Assembly: GCA_030584185.1 (NCBI GenBank)
Contig: CP129495.1
Coordinates: 1,915,469 to 1,979,468 of the forward strand
From: Acidimicrobiia bacterium
GTDB taxonomy: Bacteria > Actinomycetota > Acidimicrobiia > Spongiisociales > UBA11373
Length of the DNA: 64,000 bases
Reading direction: 5' to 3'
Positions 15,757 through 39,771 of the stretch are shown one piece after another. Numbering within the stretch: the first letter of the stretch is position 1; the number at the start of each line of letters is the position of its first letter. The notes beneath the pieces were generated by a model. It did not search any database. It saw only the letters and a list, made by a program, of their open reading frames with translations, and was not told the DNA's origin. The position numbers and the translations under genes are program-made.

Positions 15757-16371
15757 TCAGTCGCGCCGGACGATGCGCCGGTTGAGGGCGTCGAGCACGG
15801 CTCGCACCACGGCCTCCGACTCGTCGCCCTGGCTGATCGCAGACCCCACGGCGATCTCCTCTCCCCGGTCTCCGGTGGAGACGACGACGGCGACGACCAC
15901 GGTGCGCATGCCGATGGCGGTGGCGCCGACGGCGTCCAGGGCCAGGGCTTCGCCGGGGAGCAGGCCCTCCACGGCCCGGGTCGCCGCCTCGCCGACCAGG
16001 CGCATGCGAGCCGCCGGGGAGGCGGGGCCGGTGGCGGTTCCGACATGATCCTCCCCGTACCAGTGGAGGGTGACCGCAACCGTGGTCCGGGCCCCTTCCG
16101 GGATCTCGTGAACGCCTTTGATGGCCGGACGATCATCGCCGTCGCTCAGGTTCTCGGGGCCGATGGAGACGACGGAGATGGCGCGCCGGTCGATGCTGAC
16201 CCCGAAGCGTGCCAGGGCCAGGGTCTGCACGTCGCGCACCACCTGCTTCGGCGCCTTCTGCGGCGAGGCGAGCACGTGCACCTCCGAGACGCCGTCGCCG
16301 TTGCCGGTGACGCGCACCGCCCTCACCGAGGGCAGCCTCGCCAGGGTCTCTTCGATCTCGTGGATGTCCAC
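15757..16371 (-). CDS. Conserved hypothetical protein
   Basis: 204 residues, soluble, no recognised family. Two alpha/beta halves are visible. The first (1-70) has the pattern EIEETLARLPSVRAVRV and later QTLALARFGVSIDRRAISVVSI, like an ACT- or BON-type small domain. The second (~95-200) has TTVAVTLHWYG and AVVRAVLDALNRR, which vaguely recalls dimerisation domains of metabolic enzymes. It is the first gene of a probable pair with the GGT gene and diverges from the hairpin-rich region. No function is claimed. Confidence 0.55.
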   Translation of the reverse strand: MDIHEIEETLARLPSVRAVRVTGNGDGVSEVHVLASPQKAPKQVVRDVQTLALARFGVSIDRRAISVVSIGPENLSDGDDRPAIKGVHEIPEGARTTVAVTLHWYGEDHVGTATGPASPAARMRLVGEAATRAVEGLLPGEALALDAVGATAIGMRTVVVAVVVSTGDRGEEIAVGSAISQGDESEAVVRAVLDALNRRIVRRD

Positions 16372-16502
16372 ATCCCCTCCGCAGGGTGGGAAGGCCGGGT
16401 ACGGGTCCCTCCGCCGTGGCCACCAAGCGTAGCCACCGTGGTGACCGGCTGTGATCCCTGCGAAAAGCCGCGAAATCCTCCCCAGAACCTACCGGGATGC
16501 GC

Positions 16503-16508
16503 TACCGT
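16503..16508 (+). promoter_or_regulatory. Possible -10 element before the intrinsic terminator
   Basis: TACCGT, with a predicted start near 16515. If active, it would make a transcript of only about 40 bases ending at the terminator below. No good -35 was seen, so an origin further upstream is equally possible. Confidence 0.3.
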
Positions 16509-16517
16509 GTCTTCGGG

Positions 16518-16556
16518 CGGACGTCTCCCTGCGATGTGCAGGGGCGTCCGTTTTTT
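16518..16556 (+). terminator. Intrinsic (Rho-independent) terminator
   Basis: CGGACG (16518-16523) pairs with CGTCCG (16545-16550), and inside it CCCTGC (16527-16532) pairs with GCAGGG (16538-16543) around a five-base loop. Six T residues follow directly (16551-16556). There is no plus-strand gene upstream, so it must act on a leader or a small RNA starting in 16372-16517. Confidence 0.75.
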
Positions 16557-16853
16557 GGTGCCCGGAGTCATCCGGGTGGGTAGGTGAGGCCGCCGGTGGC
16601 GGCCCATCTTTGACATTGAGGTGGGCGCCCCGCGTGCCGATGAGGTACGCAGGCGACCTCCGGGGTTGCCCGGGTCACGTACGGCTGGCTAGCACTCGAG
16701 AGAGAGCGAAGCGGATCGATCCGTCGCCGGACTAGGGAAGGCGACGAGATTCAGGAAGGGAAGCGGTAAGTGACATGTGGCAGACCGTGGGAGTTAAGCC
16801 GAAGGCTTGCCGGTTCGAATGAGCTGGCGGGTCGGTTGATCAACTGACACCCG
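16557..16853 (+). ncRNA. Candidate structured RNA / leader upstream of the HD-domain genes
   Basis: This gene-free stretch holds a chain of complementary pairs. They are CCCGG/CCGGG (16561-16576), GGCCGCC/GGCGGCC with a three-base loop (16588-16604), and GTACG/CGTAC enclosing CCGGG-GTTG-CCCGG (16645-16682). Next come the self-complementary 12-mer CGGATCGATCCG (16712-16723), GTCGCC/GGCGAC (16723-16745) and CGGT/ACCG (16764-16787). The last are AAGCC-GAA-GGCTT (16796-16808), GCCGG/CTGGC (16809-16828) and CGGGT/ACCCG around GGTTGATCAACT (16828-16853). I could not match it to tmRNA, SRP RNA, RNase P RNA or any riboswitch class I know. It ends 22 bases before the HD gene, so a cis-acting leader is the simplest reading. 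Transcription itself is not shown. Confidence 0.4.
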
Positions 16854-16875
16854 GGCAACCCCCTACCCAACCAAC

Positions 16876-18177
16876 ATGAGACCCAACGAACGCAAGGGCG
16901 CAGTCCTGGCAGCATGCCTGGCAGCAACAGGCATCGCCGTGCTCGTCGTGCTCTTCATCATCCAATCGGAACCCGATCCGATGTGGCTGTGGGCGACTCT
17001 GGCGGCAGCCTTCGTGGTGCTGGACTTCGCATCGGTGGAGGTGAACGACCGGCTCTTCGTGTCGGGTTCCATCATGGCGGCATTCACCGCTGCAGTGATC
17101 TTCGGGCCGGAGTCGGCGGTGCTCGCCGTGTCCTTGATGGCCGCCGTCGCCGTCCTCCACCCCGACGACCTGAGGGAGCGCAACTGGAGGCGCCCTGCGG
17201 CCAACTTCGGTCAGCTGGTGATCTCGGCGGCGGTGGGCACCGCCGTCTTCCTCCCCTTCCTCCCCGAAGGCCCCGTGGAGGCGTCGCACCTTCCGCTCCT
17301 CGCCGCCGGGGCCGCCCTGTCTGCGGCCGTCTACGACTGGGTCAACTTCCGACTGGTGCGCTTCATCGTGCGAATCCTCTACCCCGACCGAACCCTGCGG
17401 CCGTGGTCGAAGATGCTCACCAACCACCTGGCGCTCGCCGTGCTCGGCGGCTTCGGCGGGATCCTGGGCGCCGCCTATGTGATGGTGGGCCCGGTCATCC
17501 TCCCGCTGATGTTCATCGTGTTCCTGGTCGGCCAGATGGGTTTCCACACCTACTCGCAGCTCAGGGTGGCTCACGAGGATGCGGTGCGCGGCCTGGTCAA
17601 GGCGCTCGAGGCGATCGACCCCTACACCAAGGGGCACACCGAACGGGTCGCCCACTTCGTTCAGATCGCCGGCGGCCGCCTCGGGCTGGCCCCTGAGCGG
17701 CTGGAGCGAATGCGATGGGCGGCACTCATCCACGACGTGGGCAAGGTGGCGGTCCCATCCGGGCTGCTGCACCATCAGGGGCCCCTCACCCCGGAAGACC
17801 ACCGGGTGATGACCGAGCGGATGCAGCCGGTGGAGCGCGTCCTCGCCACGGTCGACTTCCTCGCCCCCATGGTGGAGATCGCCGCCGCCCAGCATCTGGT
17901 CCATGATCCGTCGCGGGTGCCGCTCTCGCAGGAGCAGCGGCTGCTGGTGATCGCCGACGAGTTCGACGCCATGACCAGCACCCGCTCCTACCGGGCGGCC
18001 ATCACCCAGCGGGAGGCGTTCGCCCGGCTGCGGGAGCGCGCCCTCGACCTCGGCCAGGTCGAGGTGGAGGCGCTCATCGGGGCCATCATCGAGCGTGGCG
18101 AGGCGTATGGCTCCCCGGAGCGGGAGTCCTCCGAGGCGGTGGAGCGCCTGGTCCGGGAGCGTTCGATCCGTGCCTGA
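16876..18177 (+). CDS. Membrane protein with HD-GYP-like phosphohydrolase domain (GYP motif lost)
   Basis: 433 residues. About six hydrophobic segments fill residues 8-225, then a cytoplasmic HD domain follows: AVRGLVKALEAIDPYTKGHTERV (His254), AALIHDVGKVAVP (His286-Asp287) and IADEFDAMTSTRSYR, all typical of HD-GYP proteins that hydrolyse cyclic di-GMP. The HHExxDGxGYP signature between them is missing, replaced by AAAQHLVHDPSRVPL, so c-di-GMP hydrolysis is doubtful. The upstream hairpin-rich region probably forms its leader. No Shine-Dalgarno sequence precedes ATG 16876. The next gene, a related protein, overlaps its end by eight bases. Confidence 0.75.
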   Translation: MRPNERKGAVLAACLAATGIAVLVVLFIIQSEPDPMWLWATLAAAFVVLDFASVEVNDRLFVSGSIMAAFTAAVIFGPESAVLAVSLMAAVAVLHPDDLRERNWRRPAANFGQLVISAAVGTAVFLPFLPEGPVEASHLPLLAAGAALSAAVYDWVNFRLVRFIVRILYPDRTLRPWSKMLTNHLALAVLGGFGGILGAAYVMVGPVILPLMFIVFLVGQMGFHTYSQLRVAHEDAVRGLVKALEAIDPYTKGHTERVAHFVQIAGGRLGLAPERLERMRWAALIHDVGKVAVPSGLLHHQGPLTPEDHRVMTERMQPVERVLATVDFLAPMVEIAAAQHLVHDPSRVPLSQEQRLLVIADEFDAMTSTRSYRAAITQREAFARLRERALDLGQVEVEALIGAIIERGEAYGSPERESSEAVERLVRERSIRA

Positions 18178-19354
18178 CCGTCGTCGCCTCGCTGTCGCCC
18201 TGGTCGCTGCTGCTGTCGGCACCGGAGCCCTGGCCGCCCGGTGGCCGGGCCCGATCGGGCTGCTCGTCGTCGGCCTCTACGCCTTGGCCCAGGTGCCGCT
18301 CATGCCGACACCCTCAGGTATGGGGGTCTCCTTCACCCCGGCGGTGGCAGGCGGTCTCGCCCTGGCCAGCGGTGGTTCCCCGATCCTGGTGCTGGCCGCC
18401 GGGGCGGTGGCACTCCCCATGGGTGTCGCCGCAACCCACTTGGTCCCGTGGGGAGCCACCGCGCGGTCCCGCATTCCCTCGGAGGCTGCAGGGGTGGCAT
18501 CGTTTGGCGCCGTCTTCTGCGCCGCCGTTCTCCTGTTCCCCGAACGCCAGGTCGACCATCCGCTGGTGCTCGCCGCTTTCGCGGCGTCGGCGACGATCGG
18601 CTTGATGGTCACCACGCTCCTTCGCGCCGGCGCCGGAGGACGGCTCACACCTCGCCGGCTGCTGATGGTGCGCGCCTTCGCCGACTGGCCTGCGTACACG
18701 GTGCTGTATGCGGCCGCCGCCATGTTCGCCATCACCGTCCCCGAGATGGGGGCTTGGTCGCTCCTCCTCGCCGGCCTCCCGACGGCATTCGGGTACCTGG
18801 CCATGATGCGCCTGCAACGTACCCGCCACACCTACCGGCAGACCATCCACGCCCTGGGCCGGATCCCCGAAGCAGGCGGGCTGGTCGCAGATGGGCATTC
18901 CGAGCGAACGGCGGCATTGGCCACCGCGGTGGCGGCACAGCTCGGTCTGGGCGGCCGGGCCCTGGACCGGGTCGAGTTCGCCGCCCTGCTGCACGGGATA
19001 GGCCGGCTGGTGCTCGCCAACCCGGCGGTGACCGCCGGCGAGTACAGCCTCGCCGACGTCAGCGGCTGGAGCGCGGCGATCATCGGGGAGTCCGAGTATC
19101 TGGCGGAGGTCGCCGAGATCGTCGCCGTGATGAACAGCCCCTACCGACAACCCGGCCAGGAGCGCGACCGCTCCCTCCCGGTCGAGGCGCAGGTGGTCCG
19201 TACCGCCTCCGCGTTCTGTGACGGGAGCTCCGAGGGTGCAGGCCCACTGGAGGCCATGGAGACCCTGCACCGCGGTGCCGCCTACGACTTCGATCCCGAG
19301 GTGGTCGCCGCCCTGCGCCGGGTGCTGGAGCGCGAGGGCGCCATCGCCGGCTGA
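18170..19354 (+). CDS. Membrane protein with degenerate HD domain, paralogue of the upstream gene
   Basis: 394 residues with the same plan as its neighbour: hydrophobic segments to ~residue 215, then an HD-like region with HALGRIPEAGGLVADGHSERTAALATAVAAQLGL. The catalytic pair reads LLHGIGRLVL where HDVGK is expected, so the Asp metal ligand is lost and the domain is probably a sensor or a partner rather than an enzyme. Start GTG 18170 lies inside the end of the first gene, eight bases before its stop, which points to coupled translation. The two likely act as one complex; this is inference from order and similarity. Confidence 0.65.
   Translation: MPDRRRLAVALVAAAVGTGALAARWPGPIGLLVVGLYALAQVPLMPTPSGMGVSFTPAVAGGLALASGGSPILVLAAGAVALPMGVAATHLVPWGATARSRIPSEAAGVASFGAVFCAAVLLFPERQVDHPLVLAAFAASATIGLMVTTLLRAGAGGRLTPRRLLMVRAFADWPAYTVLYAAAAMFAITVPEMGAWSLLLAGLPTAFGYLAMMRLQRTRHTYRQTIHALGRIPEAGGLVADGHSERTAALATAVAAQLGLGGRALDRVEFAALLHGIGRLVLANPAVTAGEYSLADVSGWSAAIIGESEYLAEVAEIVAVMNSPYRQPGQERDRSLPVEAQVVRTASAFCDGSSEGAGPLEAMETLHRGAAYDFDPEVVAALRRVLEREGAIAG

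Positions 19355-39699: not shown

Positions 39700-39771
<72 letters not shown>

Follow-up and report, generated by a model that had tools for sequence, protein, structure and literature searches.

We analysed a stretch of 64,000 nucleotides (nt) from an Acidimicrobiia bacterium (contig CP129495.1 of assembly GCA_030584185.1), called here the window, in which a leader region precedes two overlapping genes for membrane proteins with HD domains (HD1 and HD2). Our comparison with related genomes shows that this leader contains a structured messenger RNA (mRNA) element, which wraps a small open reading frame (micro-ORF) and is directly followed, in many lineages of the phylum, by a conserved operon for membrane HD or HD-GYP proteins. 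The unit of RNA and predicted micro-ORF recurs before the same signalling genes across classes of the Actinomycetota and is uncatalogued, as neither the RNA nor the peptide has a family in Rfam, Pfam or NCBIfam. No Rfam 15 family exceeds its gathering score at the leader RNA in the window or its relatives, and permissive E-values give chance matches only. We found no paper on the RNA or the peptide in the literature searched, which leaves most subscription papers uncovered.

A preliminary description of this region, made from the letters of the window, had pointed to a gene-free gap of 504 bases with a six-T terminator and about ten further hairpins. The length of the gap is right, as the divergent gene starts at 16371 and HD1 at 16876, but a conserved six-codon ORF lies inside it and it is thus not gene-free. 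The number of hairpins was overstated: the consensus has 10 helices, several of just 2-3 pairs, and about six are convincing. The terminator-like hairpin (GGGCGGACGTC..GCGTCCG, with its six T at 16551-16556) is present, and 8 of 11 relatives share it (it is missing from loci L016-L018); the site alone is not beyond chance, because a plain terminator scan found 1 site where shuffling leads us to expect 1.5.

The preliminary description named a lack of conservation or covariation of the hairpins in relatives as a refutation; the helices are in fact conserved and covary. The fold of 16650-16870 beats 200 of 200 shuffles (z = -2.9). A DNA search located the leader in relatives of the window's family with its place unchanged, and an architecture common to 13 family genomes consists of a long closing helix P1 around the motif AGCGAAGCGGA, further helices and the six-codon ORF. 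The consensus fold of the family alignment has 57 pairs, with double-sided changes in 16. Its covariation score of 0.195 exceeds both the 0.112 +/- 0.010 of shuffles and the values for slid partners, which reach 0.064 at most. The alignment also contains long invariant runs, many bases of which are unpaired in the consensus fold. A covariance model from the family leaders found two further family members and no credible member elsewhere in the order; matches of model R1 at L038-L041 lie away from HD loci and are attributed to chance. A duplex test with swapped partners, in which the own pairs were stronger (-59.6 versus -43.9), was set aside because it is confounded by G+C.

The micro-ORF of the window's family is intact in all 13 genomes, with the consensus M[ST]W[RK][VI]G followed by a stop, the second residue being once G and twice N. 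It starts with ATG or GTG and uses all three stop codons. The claim of a six-codon ORF is made on account of its fixed start, its varying stops and its match to the C-terminus of a longer form described below, and not of the frame test, which with six codons does not decide the matter by itself (synonymous/non-synonymous ratio 0.81 for the frame of the ORF, 0.93 and 0.44 for the two others). In many family relatives, though not in all, an upstream ORF that is less conserved has its stop overlapping the start of the micro-ORF. Longer frames in the family, namely a GTG frame at 16770-16847 and an ATGTGG frame, are open in some relatives and closed in others, and for this reason we do not claim them.

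We traced HD1 orthologues through the order in 94 of 137 genomes and read their leaders. In the other families of the order the leaders mostly hold an ORF of about 29 codons, e.g. MKSTLIKLALTVGTLAAALLAGAAHFRVG and a stop, with a Shine-Dalgarno sequence, a start at ATG, GTG or TTG, and usually a C-terminus of a hydrophobic or aromatic residue, K/R/S, V/I and G/S/T before the stop. Codon comparison shows that this predicted micro-ORF is under strong codon-level constraint in the order: among 48 distinct sequences the single-base changes have a synonymous/non-synonymous ratio of 1.72 in frame versus 0.34 and 0.10 in the other frames, and the stop is TGA in 20, TAA in 16 and TAG in 12. The micro-ORF of L108 has about 14 codons. 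Among micro-ORFs of other families of the order (L074, L080, L122 and L090), some end with KIT or RIS and not with KVG or KIG; the last residue varies there and the hydrophobic-basic-V/I core stays.

In other orders of the class, the leaders of HD1 homologues carry AGCGRAGCG and, about 70 nt further on, an ORF resembling MKKVYVRIALLASSAAALLLAGGAxxW[KR] with its stop. The class homologue of P1 has 22 pairs, 16 of them with double changes, and its covariation score is 0.433 (0.205 +/- 0.017 when shuffled, at most 0.141 when slid). We built a class model (R2) solely from 18 sequences that belong to these other orders. Of 396 phylum genomes, 33 gave a match at E <= 0.01, most of them from other classes, and a wider sequence model found more. 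Neither the class model nor the phylum model contained neighbour information. The full-model matches of the sequence-only phylum model (R3) are good; its partial matches (E about 1e-8 to 1e-3), which resemble any signal-peptide-like ORF, were not counted, and neither was the weak tail of both model searches, which is possibly chance. A DNA pattern search over the phylum gave a single match, the pattern being too strict. The loci read in the class and phylum nearly always have AGCGRAGCG and an ORF of 25-30 codons, e.g. MKARILMTLAALASLILAGGAGGRLG and a stop, and the sequence of this long-form peptide (25-30 amino acids, aa) is small and hydrophobic, with a basic N-terminus and one hydrophobic helix. 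In low-G+C loci of several families (L171, L172, L176, L178, L179 and L180) the 3' strand of P1 leads into a T-rich stretch. A low-G+C locus of the window's class that the models missed (L161, genome G144) has AGCGGAGCG; its ORF is diverged (MRKMFSKAAQAVATIGTNILSGTTMGARRS) and its P1 is long and A+T-rich.

The window RNA and the phylum-wide RNA are alike in their place, the motif AGCGAAGCGGA, the enclosing helix and the end of the micro-ORF, and position and anatomy support their homology well, the scores less so. R2 gives the window 12.2 bits exactly at P1-P1, while a chance site scores equally, and R3 gives 10.3 bits with the next site at 6.1; other families in the order of the window have leaders with E-values down to 1e-10 with R2.

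Wherever a locus is not truncated by the end of its contig, the co-directional gene just 3' of the RNA encodes a membrane HD or HD-GYP protein, often one that matches MASE9. The one exception is L164/L189 (genome G197), where a membrane-GAF-GGDEF protein stands in the place of HD-GYP behind the RNA and micro-ORF; its membrane part and that of L171 are related (E 9e-11). The leader is present at those HD orthologues of the order and class that we examined, so that the other refutation named in the preliminary description, HD orthologues lacking such a leader, does not hold either. Of 12 loci outside the order, 10 have a second HD gene downstream. The upstream gene cons204 can be absent while the downstream gene stays, and the HD-GYP protein can be swapped while a related membrane domain is kept; the constant unit is thus the RNA, the micro-ORF and a membrane enzyme of presumed cyclic-dinucleotide type, usually plus the second HD gene.

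The proteins of the HD(-GYP) operon belong, judged by homology, to the superfamily of phosphodiesterases of cyclic dimeric guanosine monophosphate (c-di-GMP). The solved sequences nearest to HD1 are membrane HD-GYP phosphodiesterases (PDB 5z7c and 4mcw), to which HD1 is homologous and from which it differs by the lost GYP; the closest, 5z7c (E 1e-14), is specific for 3',3'-cyclic guanosine-adenosine monophosphate (3',3'-cGAMP). HD1 is best described as a worn HD-GYP protein with intact relatives in other classes: its HD metal-binding motif is kept in the window and in all 36 aligned relatives, whereas the GYP motif HHExxDGxGYP is missing in the window and its family, and other classes have it complete or almost complete. 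The MASE9 domain (PF20972) of HD1 scores above the cut-off by a marginal difference (24.5 versus 24.3 bits), several relatives score higher, and some are below the cut-off or without a match.

The preliminary description was correct in that HD1 keeps HD and lacks GYP and that HD2, whose gene overlaps that of HD1, reads HG. It suggested a catalytic/degenerate pair under the control of the RNA; as a scheme with the RNA only, we now consider this very improbable. The structured leader and the tandem HD genes are both conserved as this scheme would have it, but the HG of HD2 is found in the window alone (AD in two relatives, HD in the rest of the alignment), which refutes the pairing, HD1 relatives in other classes are intact, and a coding micro-ORF sits in the RNA.

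We tentatively read the RNA as a leader in which translation of the micro-ORF sets the expression of the HD operon, and we give this reading slightly less than an even chance. P1, extended by P0 in the window's family, would form just past the micro-ORF stop and near the start of HD1, which in the window has no Shine-Dalgarno sequence and lies 7-13 nt downstream of the ends of P0 and P1. A ribosome that translates the micro-ORF, or that pauses at the C-terminal motif (an aromatic or hydrophobic residue, then a basic one, V/I, G and the stop), may delay or reshape P1/P0, by which HD1 initiation would be opened or closed. In low-G+C relatives P1 and the U-tract could act instead as a transcription attenuator. 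The suggestion of an RNA-controlled signalling module in the preliminary description thus stands for the structured RNA, which is conserved and tied to the HD pair, whereas its control of the HD genes in cis is what we infer. If the RNA does regulate the HD operon, it would be a new route for translation or membrane state to set second-messenger enzymes.

Several points weigh against a regulatory role of micro-ORF translation. The U-tract is lacking in the window. Occlusion alone may not open P1, because its 3' strand begins some 9-20 nt past the stop, where the edge of a terminating ribosome lies or already outside it. The link between the window and phylum RNAs rests on position, motif and architecture, and the model scores of the window are weak (10-12 bits). 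The membrane-type peptide of about 28 aa that is kept phylum-wide looks like a working product and not merely a leader peptide.

The micro-ORF product could instead be a membrane micro-protein, a partner or regulator of the neighbouring MASE9-type HD protein, with the RNA structure controlling only its own translation. We regard this as somewhat unlikely. Such a product would agree with the 25-30 aa length, basic N-terminus, single hydrophobic helix and Shine-Dalgarno sequence in the relatives, with the codon constraint along the whole ORF, and with the constant neighbour being a membrane sensor-type protein even where the output becomes GGDEF; it would represent a widespread small protein family. 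However, the window's family is left with MSWRVG and L108 with about 14 codons, yet the RNA and HD1 persist. Since the peptide of the window's family shrank to MSWRVG while RNA and operon stayed, we favour, at least there, the role of translation over a membrane-spanning product; this family, with its peptide cut to six codons, is a natural experiment that parts the leader role from the product role. We also considered the micro-ORF as an exported peptide signal, a signal-peptide-like stretch with a tail of 3-6 residues (e.g. FKIG, SFRVG, KWR) that the HD-GYP protein encoded next to it would sense through its membrane domain. This would amount to RNA-embedded peptide-to-cyclic-dinucleotide signalling, with the window's family making the tail (MSWRVG) without the export part, and we think it improbable.

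The RNA might otherwise be an independent or dual-function structured RNA that acts in trans, with its own 5' promoter and, in some species, a 3' end made by P1 and the U-tract, the HD operon being a mere syntenic neighbour. The many conserved unpaired bases (AGCGRAGCG), which are more than a simple attenuator needs, would be explained in this way, as would the U-tract after P1 in low-G+C species, and the raiA motif RNA in the neighbourhood is an abundant non-coding RNA (PMC11706538). We nevertheless judge an action in trans unlikely, as the RNA is always co-directional with and directly 5' of one gene class phylum-wide, also after rearrangement (L164, L209), and little room is left for its own promoter in some species, where the cons204 stop codon directly adjoins its start.

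The leader RNA resembles the raiA motif RNA (ModT, RF03072) in its size of about 200 nt and its occurrence in Actinomycetota, where the latter often lies a few kb away near the hpf/raiA gene. The two are separate and coexist in the same genomes. We rejected their identity, as the raiA model has no match in the window, in the window's genome (G000) or at the leader RNA in relatives; moreover, raiA RNA usually has comFC and raiA as neighbours (PMC11706538), and the leader RNA sits not between these genes but upstream of HD1. The c-di-GMP riboswitches (GEMM-I/II) are natural leader candidates for c-di-GMP enzymes, but their models do not match the leader RNA: the window has none even when E may reach 10, and a single sub-threshold c-di-GMP-I-GGC match at L173 (E 0.9) is at the level of chance.

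Leader-peptide attenuators and arrest-peptide leaders are known from the TnaC, SecM and MifM types. They share with the leader RNA a short ORF in a structured leader 5' of the regulated gene, conserved C-terminal residues and, judged by geometry, a putative alternative structure beside the downstream start or terminator (P1 closing just past the stop, near the HD1 start or a U-tract). Unlike them, the leader RNA has a core with an invariant motif, a long-range helix enclosing the whole ORF, a hydrophobic peptide of about 28 aa in most lineages and an HD-GYP/GGDEF target, and any ribosome arrest or sensing of codon supply at its conserved C-terminal motif is putative. Dual-function and toxin mRNAs, such as RNAIII/delta-haemolysin, hok and the type I toxins, likewise combine a small hydrophobic peptide with an RNA structure that pairs its 5' and 3' parts over a long range, whereas the leader RNA is single-copy and kept by one gene class, with no antisense partner seen, none having been sought. 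TnaC is an established example of a leader peptide (PMC8429421).

Table 1. Features of the leader region and its flanking genes, in positions of the window
Feature	Position	Strand	Remarks
cons204, conserved 204-aa protein	15757..16371	-	neighbour in most relatives, on either strand
-10-like box TACCGT	16503..16508	+	TANNNT in most relatives; TTGNNN about 17 nt upstream in many
5' hairpin GGGCGGACG..CGTCCG, then T6, terminator-like	16515..16556	+	few bases 3' of the -10-like box
P0 5' strand GGTAGG	16579..16584	+	pairs with 16863-16868; 94% of cells paired, double changes in 2 pairs
P1 5' strand	16663..16675	+	pairs with 16849-16862; window fold and family consensus
P2 5' strand	16676..16686	+	pairs with 16762-16772; consensus helix 5
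Motif AGCGAAGCGGA	16705..16715	+	AGCGRAGCG invariant in 30 phylum-wide sequences; best window match of R3 at 16704-16759
P3 hairpin, CUAG-containing loop	16722..16746 (16722-28/16740-46)	+	double changes in 5 of 9 pairs; helix 8
GAAGGG	16755..16760	+	place of the Shine-Dalgarno sequence of the relatives' longer micro-ORF, by position only
Possible 15-codon ORF (ATGTGG...GAATGA)	16775..16822	+	stop overlaps micro-ORF start (ATGA); weak
P4 hairpin	16810-16817/16828-16835	+	3' strand within micro-ORF; double changes in 4 of 8 pairs; helix 10
Micro-ORF ATGAGCTGGCGGGTCGGTTGA, MSWRVG and stop	16819..16839	+	inside RNA; start, W, R/K, V/I, G and stop in 13 of 13 family members
P1 3' strand	16849..16862	+	begins 9 nt past micro-ORF stop, ends 13 nt ahead of HD1
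P0 3' strand CTACCC	16863..16868	+	consensus fold
HD1, MASE9-like membrane domain and HD_5	16876..18177	+	HD kept (LIHDVGK), GYP lost
HD2, membrane protein with HD_5	18170..19354	+	LLHGIGR here; 8-base overlap with HD1

The gene order in the relatives of the window's family is ggt, cons204, leader, HD1, HD2 and enoyl-CoA hydratase. At the 5' end of the leader, the -10-like box escapes a strict promoter scan. A conserved TTGACA/GCCGAT stretch (about 16612-16640) was dropped as a promoter because P0 places it inside the RNA and its spacing suits no -10 box. The sole match in the window above an Rfam gathering score is a transfer RNA gene at 39700-39771 on the minus strand.

The upstream protein cons204 has no Pfam or NCBIfam family, with only a sub-threshold LeuA_dimer match (E 0.02). 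It has about 204-214 aa and is conserved over the phylum beside the RNA and hpf, the gene for a ribosome hibernation factor (the window; L170:859-1494; L171:853-1497). It is usually upstream of the RNA, was not found at L209 (hpf, RNA, HD-GYP) or L164, and is preceded by hpf at several loci. Among 10 genomes picked for carrying the leader RNA or a model hit, the raiA RNA is over the cut-off in 6. In 5 of these it shares a contig with the leader RNA at a distance of no more than about 6 kb, and where the locus was read, hpf stands between the two; the Rfam model finds none in G000. We link the leader RNA to stationary-phase genes because it is often close to the hpf/raiA RNA locus. At L183-L188 (genomes G358, G616, G434, G332, G498 and G337) the raiA motif RNA, hpf, cons204, the leader RNA with its micro-ORF and the HD-GYP operon share one neighbourhood, in which two unrelated structured RNAs stand a few kb apart.

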